Assembly: GCA_003599635.1 (NCBI GenBank) | Contig: QZIX01000017.1 | Location: forward strand, 1-45,156 | DNA length: 45,156 bases | Source of the DNA: Candidatus Parcubacteria bacterium | GTDB taxonomy: Bacteria; Patescibacteriota; Patescibacteriia; Buchananbacterales; SURF-54 | Reading direction: 5' to 3' | Part shown: positions 6,376 through 15,560 of the stretch, one piece after another | How positions within the stretch are numbered: the first letter of the stretch is position 1 | Layout of the letters: every line of letters begins with the position of its first letter | Notes under the pieces: generated by a model | Seen by the model: only the letters and a program-made list of their open reading frames with translations | The model's database searches: none | Told to the model about the DNA's origin: nothing | Made by a program: the position numbers and the translations under genes

Positions 6376-6412
6376 ATTAAAAACCCTCCGCGGACAGGCG
6401 GAGGGTTTAAGT
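6376..6412. terminator. Hairpin terminator, possibly bidirectional
   Basis: AAACCCTCCGCGGACAGGCGGAGGGTTT. Confidence 0.65.
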
Positions 6413-6422
6413 TTAAATTTGT

Positions 6423-7541
6423 TTAAAGACTCTTTCTGACTAGTGCGGCTGAATTTACGGCATTAAACGCTTCAATGAAATTTCTGGCTTCCTGGTAACT
6501 TTTTTGCTCAATATCTTTTCTGCATTCTTCATCCATCAAATAAATTTCATTAAAAAATTGCTTTATAGCGAATTTGCCGTTCTTGCCGAAAATTTCTTCT
6601 TTTCCCTTGTCTGGCAACGGTTTATTTTCCATAACCCAGTCTGTCATTCTTTCATACAATCCTGGCTGGTGAATTTTTATGCAATCAAAAACTATATTTT
6701 GAAACAGTGTCGCCACATTGCCTTTTAAAATGTCGCCTTTAGGAAATTTTTCCCGTATCAGATCCAAGGGTGTTCCGGTTATGCCGTGCTGGGCGATTCT
6801 CACCTTAAAACCGGCATCGCGCAGGGCTTTGGCAATGGCTTTAGTCCTTTCAATATCGATACAGACTTGCGCAATGATATTGCCGTTTTTGTCGTAAACA
6901 TTGCCGTGAGTCGAACCGTTGGCGATGGCTAAAACATCCGGCTTTACTCCCGCTTCTTCCAGTTCATTAATAAAGGTTACCGCTTCTTCGGGCCGGGTTA
7001 AAATCATTCCGTTTTCATTGGTTCTGCCGATTTCCCCCACTTCCACTTCCAGACCGAAATTGCCGTCACCCTTTTTTGCGGCAATATATCTGGCTATTTT
7101 TATTGTCGCGTCCAGGTTCGGCTTTAGTTCATCTTTAACCGTTTTTCCGTCAAAATCAAAAAGATGGGAAGCATCAATGGCAAATGACGTATAGCCGGCT
7201 TCAACCTGCATATCGATCAGTTTTTTGGTAGCTTCAATTTCATCGTCGTCGCCCGTTTTTATGCCGATGTGGTCGGCGTGCAAAGCCCAGATATCGTGCT
7301 TTATTTTAGAATTTGCCTCAATTAAACGTGCCGACAAAGTAAGCGGGGTTAATCCTGTATAACCGCCTTTTTCATCGCATTCTGACCTTGCCAGCTCCAT
7401 AATGATGGCGGCATCCAAATCTTTGGCCGCTAAAAAAATGCCCGTCGCCACACCAGGAATTATTCTTGGGTTGCAGGCCAGGACGATTAAATTTTTATCA
7501 AGCAAAGCGTTAAAAATAATTTTACTCGATACAGGAGACAT
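6423..7541 (-). CDS. Class II fructose-bisphosphate aldolase
   Basis: HADHIGIKT, EVEVGEIGRTNENG, LAIANGSTHGNVY, AQHGITGTPLDLI motifs. Confidence 0.85.
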   Translation of the reverse strand: MSPVSSKIIFNALLDKNLIVLACNPRIIPGVATGIFLAAKDLDAAIIMELARSECDEKGGYTGLTPLTLSARLIEANSKIKHDIWALHADHIGIKTGDDDEIEATKKLIDMQVEAGYTSFAIDASHLFDFDGKTVKDELKPNLDATIKIARYIAAKKGDGNFGLEVEVGEIGRTNENGMILTRPEEAVTFINELEEAGVKPDVLAIANGSTHGNVYDKNGNIIAQVCIDIERTKAIAKALRDAGFKVRIAQHGITGTPLDLIREKFPKGDILKGNVATLFQNIVFDCIKIHQPGLYERMTDWVMENKPLPDKGKEEIFGKNGKFAIKQFFNEIYLMDEECRKDIEQKSYQEARNFIEAFNAVNSAALVRKSL

Positions 7542-7543
7542 AA

Positions 7544-7807
7544 TTACTCAAATTCAATATTAAATTGGACGTATTTTTCAGACAATAGGTCGGCTTTTTG
7601 TTTTAACTCATTATCTTTTGCACCAAGAAGTCGGTAGGTTTCAAAAAATCTGGTCAGAATCGACTTTAAATTATCAATTTGGTTTTCCTGGGGCAATTTT
7701 TGCTTTTCCCTTAAAAAAGCAAGTTTATTAAAAATGATTATGGCACTGGCAAATAGTTCTTCCATTTGTCCGTTTAATTCTTTAATTTCCTCTAAATTTT
7801 CAGACAT
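7544..7807 (-). CDS. Hypothetical protein, predicted alpha-helical
   Basis: ORF 87 aa packed tightly between aldolase and FBPase genes. Confidence 0.6.
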   Translation of the reverse strand: MSENLEEIKELNGQMEELFASAIIIFNKLAFLREKQKLPQENQIDNLKSILTRFFETYRLLGAKDNELKQKADLLSEKYVQFNIEFE

Positions 7808-7822
7808 AATAGCGAATTATTT

Positions 7823-8779
7823 TTAACTATATGCTTTATGCTCAGTTTTAATATATCTGACCGTGCCGGAAGTGCCGCGAACGACAATGGAGTGTGTCAT
7901 AATTTTATCCGAATAAAACTTTACTCCCTCCAATAAGGGGCCGTCAATAACTCCGGTAGCTGTAAAGGTTAATAGATTATTTTTGGCCATGTCATTTGTT
8001 GAAAAAACCTTATTTATGTTTGTAATTCCAGCTTTTTTTAAATGCTCTTCTATATTTTTCTTATCTTCATCGGATCGCGGGGTAAAACGGCACAGGATTT
8101 CTCCGCCAAATATTTTTAAAGGCACAGCGGCCAATACTGCTTCAGTTGATCCGCCGATGCCAAACAAAGCATCAATTCCTGAATCAGGCAAGGCGCAGGC
8201 AATGGCAGCTGCCACATCACCGTCTGTTATCAGCCTAACCCTGGCTCCGGCATTTCTTATTTCCTTGATTAATTCCTGATGCCGCTCACGGTCTAAAACA
8301 ATCGCCGTAACTTCTCTCGGATCTTTACCTAAAGCTTTGGCAATTTTTTTAATATTGTCTTTTATCGGGGCATCCAAATCTATAACTTTTGCCGCTTTTT
8401 TGCCAACAGCGATTTTATTCATATAAGTATCAGGTGCATGAAGCAATGTACCTTTTGGTCCCGCCGCAATAACTGAAATAGCATTATATCTGCCCCAGGC
8501 AACGCTGTCTGTGGCTTCCAAAGGGTCAATTGCCAGATCCATTTCAGGCTCACGGTTTTTGCCGACAATTTCTCCGGTGTAAAGCTTTGGCGCCTCGTCT
8601 TTTTCTCCCTCACCAATAACAACTGTTCCTTTAAATTCAATTTGATTGAACCTGTCGCGCATCTCATCTACAGCCGCACCATCGGCTTTTTTCTTTTCTC
8701 CGCGTCCCACCCACTCGGCGGCAGCAATAGCCGCGGCTTCGGTTACGCGCACGAATTCCAAGGCTAAGTTTCTGTCCAT
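7823..8779 (-). CDS. glpX: Class II fructose-1,6-bisphosphatase
   Basis: MDRNLALEFVRVTEAAAIAAAEWVGRGEKKKADGAAVDEMR...GEGEKDEAPKLYTGE...AIDPLEATD. Confidence 0.95.
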   Translation of the reverse strand: MDRNLALEFVRVTEAAAIAAAEWVGRGEKKKADGAAVDEMRDRFNQIEFKGTVVIGEGEKDEAPKLYTGEIVGKNREPEMDLAIDPLEATDSVAWGRYNAISVIAAGPKGTLLHAPDTYMNKIAVGKKAAKVIDLDAPIKDNIKKIAKALGKDPREVTAIVLDRERHQELIKEIRNAGARVRLITDGDVAAAIACALPDSGIDALFGIGGSTEAVLAAVPLKIFGGEILCRFTPRSDEDKKNIEEHLKKAGITNINKVFSTNDMAKNNLLTFTATGVIDGPLLEGVKFYSDKIMTHSIVVRGTSGTVRYIKTEHKAYS

Positions 8780-8818: not shown

Positions 8819-9658
8819 TTATTTACCATTCCTGCTCTTTACCGCTTCCTCATAGCTTTTGGGATTGCCGACATCAAACCACTTGCCACGGAAAAAATAA
8901 CCGTAAATCTGTTCTTCGTAAGCGAGCTTCGGGAAAACGTCTTTTTCCAATTTTATAGTTTTTTTATTGATGTAATTGAAAATCTTGGGTTCCATAATAT
9001 AAATTCCGGCATTGATTACATGGGATAAATTCTTTGACGGTTTCGGCTTTTCCGTAAATTCCAGAACCTGCGAGCCGCGGATTCCGCATACACCCCAATC
9101 CGATGATTTTTCAACGGAAGTTAATGCCATCGTGACCGTACCCTTGTGCGATAAATGAAATTCAATCATGTCGGACAAATCAATTTCAGCCAAAACGTCG
9201 CCATAAATCAAAATAAAAGGCCTGTCGGAAAAAATTTCTTTTACCTGCAACAAGGCCTGCGCTGTTCCCACAGCTTCTTTTTCCTGCTCAATATAATCGA
9301 TTTTAACGCTAAAACGTGTACCGGCGCCGAAATACTGTTTTACCTTTTCGCCAAGAGGACCGAGAGATAAAGTGATGTCGCGTATTTCGTTATTGCGCAA
9401 AAGATCGATTGTATGTTCCAAAAGCGGTTTTCCCGAAATCGGCAGCATTACTTTGGGCAGTTCATAGGTTAACGGACGCATCTTCAGACCCTTGCCACCG
9501 GCTAAAATCAGGGCCTTGCTTACTTTACTCGCCAGACTTTTTGAAAGCAAATATTCAATGGCATGCGACCGGTTCCTGATTTTTTCCTCGTCGATTACCC
9601 TGTCAACCTGGTCCAGAAGGTCTTTTTTTATTGATATTGTCAGCCTTTTTCTGTCCAT
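8819..9658 (-). CDS. N-terminal ribbon-helix-helix domain fused to a sugar-nucleotide pyrophosphorylase-type nucleotidyltransferase
   Basis: MDRKRLTISIKKDLLDQVDRVIDEEKIRNRSHAIEYLLSKSL (RHH) then KALILAGGKGLKMRPLTYELPKVMLPISGKPLLEHTI...YGDVLAEID. Confidence 0.87.
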   Translation of the reverse strand: MDRKRLTISIKKDLLDQVDRVIDEEKIRNRSHAIEYLLSKSLASKVSKALILAGGKGLKMRPLTYELPKVMLPISGKPLLEHTIDLLRNNEIRDITLSLGPLGEKVKQYFGAGTRFSVKIDYIEQEKEAVGTAQALLQVKEIFSDRPFILIYGDVLAEIDLSDMIEFHLSHKGTVTMALTSVEKSSDWGVCGIRGSQVLEFTEKPKPSKNLSHVINAGIYIMEPKIFNYINKKTIKLEKDVFPKLAYEEQIYGYFFRGKWFDVGNPKSYEEAVKSRNGK

Positions 9659-9664
9659 ATTACA

Positions 9665-9694
9665 ATATCATACCATATCATACCTCTTCATACA
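9665..9694 (-). promoter_or_regulatory. Candidate operator: three 10-bp tandem units 6 bp upstream of the RHH-nucleotidyltransferase start
   Basis: ATATCATACC-ATATCATACC-TCTTCATACA on the plus strand. Confidence 0.5.
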
Positions 9695-9872
9695 ATACCG
9701 TTAATGTTACTATTTTGTGGACTGAATTTTTAATTTTTTTATTATTTTTATAAAAGGGTAAACAAAAAATTCACGATGTCGATAAAAGCAGGTGCTAAAT
9801 TTAAATGCAGTTTTTGTTATACCTAATACCAAAAGGCGAACAAATTACTTCAGCTTCTTATTGTAAATTATC

Positions 9873-11404: not shown

Positions 11405-11524
11405 CTTTGTCCTGGCGGTGACCTACTTTCCCCAGAAAGAGTATCATCGGCGCTGGTGGGCTTAACTTCTGTGTTCGGGATGGGAACAGGTGTGACCCCA
11501 CCGCTAAAACCACCAAGACAAAGG
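11405..11524 (-). rRNA. rrf: 5S rRNA (ends approximate)
   Basis: Plus-strand TCATCGGCGCTGGTGGGCTTAACTTCTGTGTTCGGGATGGGAACAGGTG is reverse-complement 5S; TTGTC/GACAA terminal stem. Confidence 0.93.
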
Positions 11525-11914
11525 GTTCTATATTTTAACAATTAACAATTGACTATTAACAAATAACTTCTAATAAATAGCCGGAATTTAAAATTAAATT
11601 CCTTATAAGCTTTAATTTTTGTGGTTAAATATCTCGGCCTATTAGTACCTCTCGGCTGAATGCATTACTGCACTTACACCTGAGGCCTATCAACCTCATC
11701 ATCTTTGAGGGGCCTATAATGAAACCTAATCTTGAAGACAGCTTCGCGCTTATATGCTTTCAGCGCTTATCTAAACCGAACTTAGCTACCCAGCGGTGCC
11801 CTTGGTAGAACAGCTGGTACACTAGAGGTTCGTTCTTCCCGGTCCTCTCGTACTAGGGAAGAGCCTTCTCAAGTTTCAACGTCCGTGGCGGATAGGAGAC
11901 CGAACTGTCTCACG

Positions 11915-12211
11915 CATGTTATTCCTAAATTGCTTTAGGCACTGACTATACCTTCATCCTCTCAAAAACATTTGAGGAGGAGCTAACGTCTGATAGAAGT
12001 TTAATTCCTGAATATCAGGTACCTTCTATCTCAGTCCGACATAACGTCGGACATCAGTCGATACGGGGAATAATTTATGCTGCAATAGCACAAAATTAAT
12101 CTTCCCTCGGTATTGCCCTAAAAAAATCAGTTCGTAAAATTAATTTAGGGTTTCACCGATATTAGTTAGATTTTTTTTATCACATTTCTGTGATAGAACG
12201 CAATGTAATTT
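11915..12211 (-). other. Group I intron in 23S at the site equivalent to L2593, 297 nt, no ORF
   Basis: Exons read GGGTTCAGAACGT^CGTGAGACAG in rRNA sense; intron ends in G; contains S-like element GAAGGTATAGTC. Confidence 0.82.
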
Positions 12212-12244
<33 letters not shown>

Positions 12245-12278
12245 TGGCGAACAGCCAAACCCTTGGGAGCTTCTTCAC

Positions 12279-12311
<33 letters not shown>

Positions 12312-12807
12312 GAACCGGGCCGTCTATGTGAACTATTGGGCCCGACTAGCCTGTTATCCCCGGAGTAGCTTTTATCCGTTGAGCTTCCGCCGTCCTATTT
12401 CGTACGGTCGGATCACTAACTTCTGCTTTCGCAACTGCTTGTCTGGTTAGACTCGCAGTAAAGCTGGCTTATGCGTTTGCACTATCATCCCGATTTCCAT
12501 CCGGGATTAGCCAACCTTTGTAAACGCCTCCGTTACTGTTTGGGAGGCAACCGCCCCAGTTAAACTACCCACCAGATACTGTCCCTTCACCCGCTTCAGG
12601 GCAAAAGGTTAGACTTAAAAAATCACAAGGGTGGTATCTCACTGTCGTCCCGCCAAAGGCGGGACTCCCACCTATTCTGAACATGCGAAACTTTAAGCCA
12701 ATATCAAGTTATAGTAAAGCTTCACGGGGTCTTTTCGTCCAGCCACGGATAACGAGCATCTTCACTCGTCTTGCAATTTCACCGAGTACCTCGTTGAGAC
12801 AGTTCTC

Positions 12808-12839
<32 letters not shown>

Positions 12840-12860
12840 CACCCGACAAGGAATTTCGCT

Positions 12861-13243
12861 CTTCGTTTCCCTTTTACGAAGGACTATATCTTCACCCGAT
12901 GCTTGATCGGGGCTTAGCGTATAGTCTCTGAGGATTCTTAATAGTTGAAATAGCTGCGGAAGTAATTATTTAGGTTGTTTAAAAAACAACTATGTTTGTT
13001 TTCCAACTACTTCTATTTCAACGCTTCTATTCACATTGTTTTTTCAATAGAAGCCGCTTTCAACAATTTTGTTATTAATATCATAACAAAATTTAACTAT
13101 TAAGCCTTTCCTGCTGGTCATGGATTACCACTTCCCAGCATACAGCTAAGTTTTTACGGACCAATTTTACATTGCTGTAAAACGAGGCAGACTTCTTTTA
13201 TAATCCGTCCCAGTCCTTTTGTTCTCATATATATAAGAACAAA
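12861..13243 (-). other. Group I intron in 23S at the site equivalent to L1931, 383 nt, no ORF
   Basis: Exons read CCGTCCTAAGGT^AGCGAAATTCC in rRNA sense; intron ends in G; R/S pair CTCAGAGACTATACG and AAGATATAGTCC form P7. Confidence 0.9.
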
Positions 13244-14081
13244 ACCTTAGGACGGTTATAGTTACCGCCGGCGTTCATCCGCGCTTCAGTTCAAGGCTCA
13301 TCCCGCTTGCGCGGGGGTCACCTCTCCCCTTAACGTTCGGACACTGGCCAGGCATCAGCCCCTATACATCACCTTACGGTTTAGCAGGGACCTTTGTTTT
13401 TGATAAACAGTCGCTTGAGATCTTTAGCTGCGTCCCGCCAAAGGCGGGAAGCCCTTATTGCGAACTTACGGACGCTTTTTTGCCGAGTTCCTAAACGAGG
13501 TTTCTCTCGTACACCTTAGCACACTTATGCCCGCCTACCTGTGTCGGTTTGCGGTACGGTTACTTTCAGCTTAACTCTAGAGGTTTTTCTAGACATCAGT
13601 TTTGACTTGATTGGCATCAGCAAGCTTTCAGCCTTTTGCCAAGTCGGAAATTTGCGGCAGCGGATTTGCCTACTGCCATTTCCAAATCAGCAACGTCCAT
13701 ACCATAGAACGTCAAATCTCCACTAATGCGTCACCCCGTCGAAAACCAAAAGTAGTGCTGGAATATTAACCAGCTCGTCCATCGACTACGCCTTTCGGCC
13801 TCGCCTTAGGACCGACTAACCCTGGGTCGATTTGCGTTGCCCAGGAAACCTCAGGCTTACGGTGGGCGGGGTTCTCACCCGCCTTTTTGCTACTCATGCC
13901 AACATTCTCTCTTCTTTAACCTCCACCAGCCCTCACGGGTCTGACTTCAGCGGTTAAAGAATGCTCCTCTACCGTCCGACGAAATAAATTCCGCCGGACC
14001 CATATCTTCGGTACTAAGCTTGAGCCCCGATAAATTTTCGGCGCAAGACAACTTGACCAGTGAGCTGTTACGCTTTCTTTA

Positions 14082-14112
<31 letters not shown>

Positions 14113-15560
14113 TTGTTTGAGTCATGTCACCACCTTTTACACTTAGCTTAGATTTAGGGACCTTAAATGATGGTCTGGGCTGTATCCCTTTTGACTAATG
14201 GAGCTTAGCCCCCACAGTCTTACTCCTGCCGATAAAGCTAACCCGGTATTCGGAGTTTGGTTGGGTGAAGTAGGATCACTCCATCCGCACCCATTCAGTG
14301 CTCTACCCCCGGGCGCAACGACAAGGCTAGCCCTAAAGCTATTTCGAGGAGAACCAGCTATCGCCAAGTTCGATTGGAATTTCTCCGCCAGCCACAACTC
14401 ATCCCAATGTTTTGCACAGCATACGGGTTCGGGCCTCCTCCCGCTGTTACGCGGGATTCACCCTGGTCATGGCTAGGTCACCTGGCTTCGGGTCTTGTAC
14501 AAATGACTAAATCGGGTTATTAACCCTCGCTTTCACTTTGCCTCCGTCCGTTAAGAACTTAGGCTTGCCATTTGAAACAAACTCGTTGGCTCATTCTTCA
14601 ATAGGAACGCCGTCATCCCGCGAACGCGGGACTCCGACTCTTTGTAAGCATATGGTTTCAGATACTATTTCATTTCCCTCACCGGGATGCTTTTCACCTT
14701 TCCCTCACGGTACTTGTTCGCTATCGATCATCAAAAGTATTTAGCCTTGGCCAATAGTCTGGCCTGCTTCCCGCAGGGTTTCACGAGTCCCGCGGTACTC
14801 AAAATAATCACTGTAGAGCTATAACCCCTTTCGCGTACAGGACTGTCACCTTCTATGGTTGCCACTTTCCAGAGGCATTCCACTAGGGAAGTCATATTTC
14901 ATATTACCCTACTTAAGCTTGCAAGAACTTAGATGCAATTATTTTACAACGTTCTATAGGCATTACGGGCTTGCACCCTTAATTTTAAAAATAAACCAAT
15001 CCTTGCGGATCAATAAATTTCCAAAAATAACCTACAGAATTTGGGCTCTTCCCTGTTCGCTCGCCACTACTAAGGGAATGGAGCAACTTACAATTCCGCA
15101 ATCGTCTAAAAGACAATTGCAAAATGTAAATTGCAAAATTCTTTTTCTTTTCCTCCGGCTACTAAGATGTTTCAATTTGCCGGGTCGTCTTCATTACCCT
15201 ATGAATTCAGGCAATGATGATCCGATCTTCCATCGGACCGGGTTACCCCATTCGGAGATCCACGGATCAAAGGTTGCTTGCCACCTAACCGAGGCTTATC
15301 GCAGGCTGCTGCGTCCTTCATCGTCTTTTGATGTCGAGGCATCCACCATATGCGCTTGAATGATATTTAACCACAAAAATTATAAGCTTATAATTTTCGT
15401 TTAAAAATTTTTTACTAATTGGTGTACTCGTTATCTATGTACTTATTTATTGTTTATTCAGTTGTTAAAGTTCCCGAAATTTCTGATTTTTGTTCTTGAC
15501 ATCCTCAAGGCAGCAGATTTTTGCTGAATTTCAGGAGGCCAATTTCTTTCCACCTGGACT

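Follow-up and report, generated by a model that had tools for sequence, protein, structure and literature searches.

What does a protein do that joins a ribbon–helix–helix (RHH) DNA-binding domain to a sugar nucleotidyltransferase fold, and are the short repeats in front of its gene the sites to which it binds? The question is raised by a gene in the window (the whole stretch of 45,156 nucleotides analysed, a 45 kb contig from a 778 kb assembly of a genome that is ∼80% complete). The gene (8819–9658, (−) strand) has an ATG start and encodes 279 residues, and was identified as an RHH–nucleotidyltransferase fusion from its open reading frame, domain searches and homologues. Its closest named relative (JAHIRB010000008.1) has 77% identity across the whole protein, and by this match the window is assigned to Patescibacteria.

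The gene unit and its predicted operator

The fusion gene is followed on the same strand, after 39 bp, by glpX, which encodes a class II fructose-1,6-bisphosphatase (7823–8779, (−) strand; PF03320, E = 2e-127). A small open reading frame of 87 residues (orf87; 7544–7807, (−) strand), for which no convincing Pfam match was found, lies 15 bp after glpX, and a class II fructose-bisphosphate aldolase gene (fba; 6423–7541, (−) strand; PF01116, E = 6e-26) lies 2 bp after orf87; the two Pfam matches bear out the initial annotation, which had placed glpX and a class II aldolase downstream. Directly 3′ of the aldolase gene is a hairpin with a T tail that resembles an intrinsic terminator (6381–6408, (−) strand). 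It comes from a consensus scan in which the number of matches was not above that in shuffles; the same scan gave no terminator-like site on the (−) strand from 9658 to 6408. The short gaps between the genes, and the position of the first terminator-like hairpin after the aldolase gene, suggest that fusion–glpX–orf87–fba is probably one transcription unit.

Upstream of the fusion gene and on the same strand are 5S and 23S rRNA genes (11410–15372, (−) strand), with a match to a group I intron within the 23S rRNA gene (11923–12221, (−) strand; Rfam RF00028, 57.6 bits). A co-oriented 23S gene is found near the fusion in 12 of 12 neighbourhoods scanned, which are not an unbiased sample, and the rRNA of L160 has another group I intron match.

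Just before the start of the fusion gene, where the initial annotation had seen them, are three 10 bp repeats (9665–9694, (−) strand) that place GTATGA half-sites at −35, −25 and −15 from the ATG. The repeats are ATATCATACC at 9665–9674 and again at 9675–9684, and TCTTCATACA at 9685–9694; on the coding strand the array reads GTATGAagagGTATGAtatgGTATGAtatt, with a half-site spacing of exactly 10 bp. Short half-sites repeated about one helical turn apart at a gene's own promoter are a trait of RHH repressors that is found here at the level of the sequence. Searching the 778 kb assembly for GTATGANNNNGTATGA gave an exact match only at these repeats, and allowing one mismatch gave one other site (none for the reversed-pattern control). 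As the genome of the window has only one such site, it is best described as the predicted autoregulatory operator of fusion–glpX–orf87–fba. A large regulon in this genome was considered and rejected, there being one operator only.

The repeats overlap a possible σ70-like promoter (TTAACG-16-TATGAT; 9677–9704, (−) strand), the −10 element of which is the middle half-site. This match is weak (9/12); the matches in relatives are much better (for example TTGACT-17-TATGAT in L010), and in most of them the position of a TTGACN hexamer brings the −10 element into or next to the operator. Repression by occlusion would be the simplest reading, as the protein, once bound, would lie over the core promoter. 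The overlap might also mean that the repeats are themselves promoter elements, tandem TATGAT −10 boxes unrelated to the RHH domain, as TATGAT is like a −10 hexamer, with a −35-like hexamer often present 16–18 bp upstream. We regard this as very improbable. The half-site has a leading G and occurs in two or three copies at a fixed 10 bp spacing, the phase of the repeats relative to the −10 element differs by lineage (+11, +8, +1, −6 and −12) and a separate −10 element lies just upstream of the repeats in six genomes (L011, L023, L024, L025, L110 and L140). The variable phase and the separate −10 elements argue that the repeats are not merely −10 boxes, and the repeats as plain −10 boxes were rejected on this account. 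Few operator-like sites, moreover, occur genome-wide, and they cluster at the fusion gene (the strict direct pattern has ∼75 matches in 57 fusion genomes, versus ∼22 for the control), and inverted versions exist (see below).

Conservation of the operator, the DNA-contact residues and the candidate targets

We compared 72 fusions from 70 Patescibacteria genomes: 28 near relatives and 44 found by sampling the phylum evenly, where 44 of 380 genomes have a full-length fusion. A scan of GTDB contigs, using patterns that reach close relatives only, gave a single fusion, which is from Patescibacteria too. Many families are involved, and the fusion proteins are often only ∼50% identical. A GTATGA-N4-GTATGA pair with no more than one mismatch is present within 250 bp upstream of 35 of the 72 fusions (20/28 of the near relatives and 15/44 of the wider-phylum set), versus 0.21% of 1,440 dinucleotide shuffles; a perfect pair is present within the same distance for 19 of the fusions and for none of the shuffles. 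The binomial P for this enrichment (∼1e-73) is nominal and overstated, because related genomes do not count as independent observations. Only the two half-sites (the core TATGA, then T-A) are conserved; conservation is at background outside them, including the bases between the half-sites (positions 8–9).

In five fusions (L027, L129, L134, L136 and L142) the GTATGA pair is inverted at the same 10 bp offset, and genome-wide there are 25 inverted sites versus two for the reversed-pattern control. If each half-site were bound by an RHH dimer of two-fold symmetry, its orientation would be free while the spacing stayed fixed, as in these sites. A near-perfect direct pair is absent within 250 bp upstream of 37 of the 72 fusions. 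The expectation that homologues of the fusion would carry upstream repeats thus holds in part: the near-perfect pair is present in about half and the inverted one in another five, but some have neither. The fusions without a pair come mainly from a subfamily in which a DNA-contact residue has changed, or from genomes in which the operator lies before another gene. Taken with the overlap or abutment with the promoter, the retention of the repeats with the fusion across the phylum supports their reading as an operator.

The N-terminal RHH domain (residues 1–43; 9530–9658, (−) strand) was recognized from conservation, PDB matches and a model. Its strand is R5-x-T7-x-(T/S)9 and residues 28–31 are RNRS. 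The match of residues 5–39 to Pfam RHH_1 (E = 0.012) is below the Pfam cut-off, yet the earlier assignment of an RHH domain to the first ∼43 residues is upheld, as this is the most invariant part of the family. R5, T7 and R28–S31 are invariant in 26 aligned sequences, R5 is present in 60 and T7 in 65 of 69 near-full-length fusions, and no residues of the family are more invariant than R5, T7, T/S9 and the RNRS segment. The strand–helix–helix order, alternating polar residues in the strand and NRS N-cap before helix 2 that mark the MetJ/Arc repressors are all found, the helices as predictions and the strand at low confidence. The closest solved RHH domain is that of NikR (best PDB match, E = 0.05), and the RHH domain of L033 matches NCBIfam nikR (E = 0.0014). 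An AlphaFold model built from six sequences (pLDDT 67.6, mediocre) has helices at residues 12–22 and 30–40, with the strand, and residues 1–28 generally, at low confidence; as a prediction, it confirms the nucleotidyltransferase fold but not the DNA-binding mode.

Six fusions have a Lys at position 5, and GTATGA pairs are absent from all six. CGTAT repeats with 10 bp spacing lie upstream of the K5 fusions L120, L122 and L133, and those of L122 and L133 have a 10-7-10 bp spacing. A possible explanation, resting on one clade, is a switch of operator and specificity tied to one contact residue. These data also bear on the idea that the RHH domain is an assembly or antitoxin-like relic and that another regulator binds the repeats. 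Although RHH domains are common in antitoxins, we give this idea scarcely any weight: the operator accompanies the fusion in different lineages, no residues of the protein are better conserved than the contact residues and the change of R5 to Lys goes with the absence of GTATGA pairs and, in three cases, with CGTAT repeats. In L026 (G074) the fusion gene is split after residue 172 by an in-frame TGA and has a perfect operator; it is either a pseudogene or an assembly error.

Genes neighbouring the fusions encode PFK, PfkB, PGK, GlpX, aldolase, NagB, CofD/YvcK-like and TrmB proteins, as well as a GlmS-like protein (recognized by eye only). In several genomes (among them L075:6184-7176, L077:7068-8045 and L086:6348-7355) the gene that follows the fusion encodes a DUF6206-like protein (weak recognition). 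In L046 glpX starts after the fusion; in L074 (G001) a full-length glpX open reading frame was not picked up, for which a frameshift or insertion is possible.

Away from the fusion locus, matches to a loose pattern (28 genomes) are no commoner than those to the reversed-pattern control, and because of this our regulon claims use the stricter 14-base patterns only. Sites of this kind lie directly before genes for PGM/PMM and a split transketolase in G315, NagB fused to a PIG-L domain in G294, α-amylases in two genomes (G260 and G114), a hexokinase-like protein in G114 and aminotransferases in G235, G424 and G342. The operator of G141 lies before a phosphoribosyltransferase gene that is itself immediately upstream of the fusion. 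The fusion of G114 has no operator of its own, and since this is so its regulator seems to have kept its targets and lost autoregulation. No evident target was found for the strict off-locus sites in G148 (C49 and C76), G294 (C23), G235 (C99) and G020 (C42, inside a gene).

The nucleotidyltransferase domain

Pfam, structure matches and alignment assign a nucleotidyltransferase fold to residues 48–279 (8819–9517, (−) strand). Residues 48–274 match Pfam NTP_transferase (E = 9e-45), and the best structural matches are to GDP-mannose, glucose-1-phosphate and MurNAc-1-phosphate nucleotidyltransferases. The canonical signature of these enzymes is GGXGXR(L)XPL-X5-PK, and in GDP-mannose pyrophosphorylase its Arg residue is absolutely conserved and anchors the phosphates (PMC9424295). 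The window protein has GGKGLKMRPLTYELPK instead, with L58-K59 replacing T-R, and does not have the invariant Arg of active nucleotidyltransferases. The domain had been described as a complete sugar-nucleotide pyrophosphorylase; it does span the full length, but with an altered catalytic signature. The Lys could partly substitute for the Arg.

The position of the signature Arg is occupied by Lys in 34 of the 69 near-full-length fusions, by Arg in 13, by a gap in seven and by other residues in the rest. The Arg is replaced or missing in 56/69 fusions and is present in all seven of the unfused relatives compared. Ten of the 13 Arg-bearing fusions have it in a GTR-like context; in a tree with an uncertain root these ten fall mostly with unfused nucleotidyltransferases and the rest form one large group. 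The ten fusions that keep GTR may be active enzymes, judging from their signature. Nearly all 69 fusions retain D154, G189, E203-K204, W260 and D262. Much of the NTP loop is deleted in L021, L033, L035, L038 and L100, and in three of these (L021, L035 and L038) the operators are intact or near-intact. As three loop-deleted fusions retain operators and the sugar-site residues are kept in nearly all fusions, selection appears to have maintained both DNA binding and the part of the pocket that faces the sugar in proteins with impaired NTP chemistry.

Like PutA or NadR, the protein might nevertheless be a trigger enzyme with two functions, catalysing nucleotidyl transfer and also repressing its own operon, with substrate binding switching between the two roles. 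Trigger enzymes that carry a DNA-binding domain are well established (PMC8249747), and the fusion shares with PutA, NadR and BirA the joining of a DNA-binding domain to a metabolic-enzyme domain. Its fold is complete, D154, K69, E203-K204 and D262 are retained and GGxGTR is kept in the ten fusions noted above. We consider this reading unlikely: the phosphate-anchoring Arg is a Lys in the window protein and is not an Arg in most of the fusions, and some operator-bearing proteins lack the loop. A sensor is likelier than an active enzyme because the signature Arg has been lost and because some proteins with an intact operator have lost most of the NTP loop. Of the initial picture of an enzyme that autoregulates a gluconeogenesis operon, the autoregulation is retained as a prediction and the gluconeogenesis genes are present in the unit; the enzyme is not retained, given the loss of the signature Arg.

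Proposed mechanism and known systems

The reading that we prefer, and hold to be quite probable, is that the protein is an enzyme-derived, likely non-catalytic sensor of a sugar phosphate, an NDP-sugar or a nucleotide that acts as an RHH repressor of its own operon. For the domains, the operator, its co-conservation with the fusion and its siting at sugar-metabolism promoters we rely on sequence comparison. The RHH domains would dimerize, with a β-ribbon (R5, T7 and T/S9) entering the major groove of GTATGA half-sites and dimers stacking one helical turn apart on direct repeats (inverted in some lineages). Binding to repeats that cover the promoter of the fusion gene would switch off fusion–glpX–orf87–fba. 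The C-terminal domain would be a descendant of a sugar-1-phosphate nucleotidyltransferase that, in the clade of the window protein, has lost the signature anchoring the NTP phosphates and is most likely a sensor; binding of a sugar phosphate, NDP-sugar or nucleotide would change the arrangement of the RHH domains and their affinity for DNA. Repression, the ligand, the direction of the response, the loss of catalysis and the allostery are what we infer from this arrangement.

In the freely accessible literature searched, we found no paper uniting an RHH domain with a sugar nucleotidyltransferase. RHH repressors and enzyme-derived regulators (PutA and BzdR) are known; this combination, its operator and its regulon were not found in that literature. 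It seems reasonably likely that the fusions constitute an undescribed, phylum-wide family of carbohydrate regulators in Patescibacteria, in which an RHH-captured nucleotidyltransferase senses the sugar-nucleotide state. Its target would be its own gene in most lineages and, in certain lineages, genes of glycolysis, gluconeogenesis, the pentose-phosphate pathway, amino-sugar metabolism and starch metabolism; a subfamily that keeps the signature shows an apparent switch to a CGTAT operator together with the R-to-K change. Most Patescibacteria have not been cultured, and how they control metabolism is poorly understood; here the regulator, operator and candidate targets can be read together across ∼70 genomes, giving a regulon that is testable without culture. 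The family also seems to span a path from enzyme to transcription factor, from fusions with an intact signature to loop-deleted ones, with the DNA-binding domain conserved throughout, and the half-site that it has in common with NikR lends itself to testing RHH recognition.

Like NikR, the fusion has an N-terminal RHH domain on a C-terminal domain that senses a ligand (putatively so in the fusion), and in the alignment it shares the R-x-T-x-T strand, the residues that make the base contacts in NikR. The GTATGA half-site is identical, but the operator of Escherichia coli NikR is GTATGA-N16-TCATAC (PMC7055735), whereas the half-sites of the fusion are direct or inverted with a 10 bp offset. The fusion has a nucleotidyltransferase fold in place of the ACT-like nickel domain, and its operators lie at sugar genes rather than at those for nickel uptake. 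The DNA-binding domain of PutA is likewise an N-terminal RHH domain. PutA, a proline dehydrogenase, resembles the fusion in carrying a DNA-binding domain on a metabolic-enzyme domain and in the autogenous control of an operon of the same pathway (PMC8249747); it differs in having an unrelated enzyme domain and a different operator, and the catalytic signature is mostly lost in the fusions. GMPPB, RmlA, MurU and archaeal GlmU share the fold and many sugar-site residues with the fusions, most of which differ from them in having GGxGxR altered or deleted and in the additional N-terminal RHH domain. NadR (HTH and NMN adenylyltransferase) also joins a DNA-binding domain to a nucleotidyl-transferring domain, although both its fold and its DNA-binding domain differ from those of the fusion. 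Finally, BzdR has a shikimate-kinase-like sensor, an enzyme fold that was recruited as the sensor of a regulator and lost its activity (PMC3602430), as would be the case for the fusion, albeit with an RHH rather than an HTH domain, a nucleotidyltransferase rather than a kinase and a different pathway.
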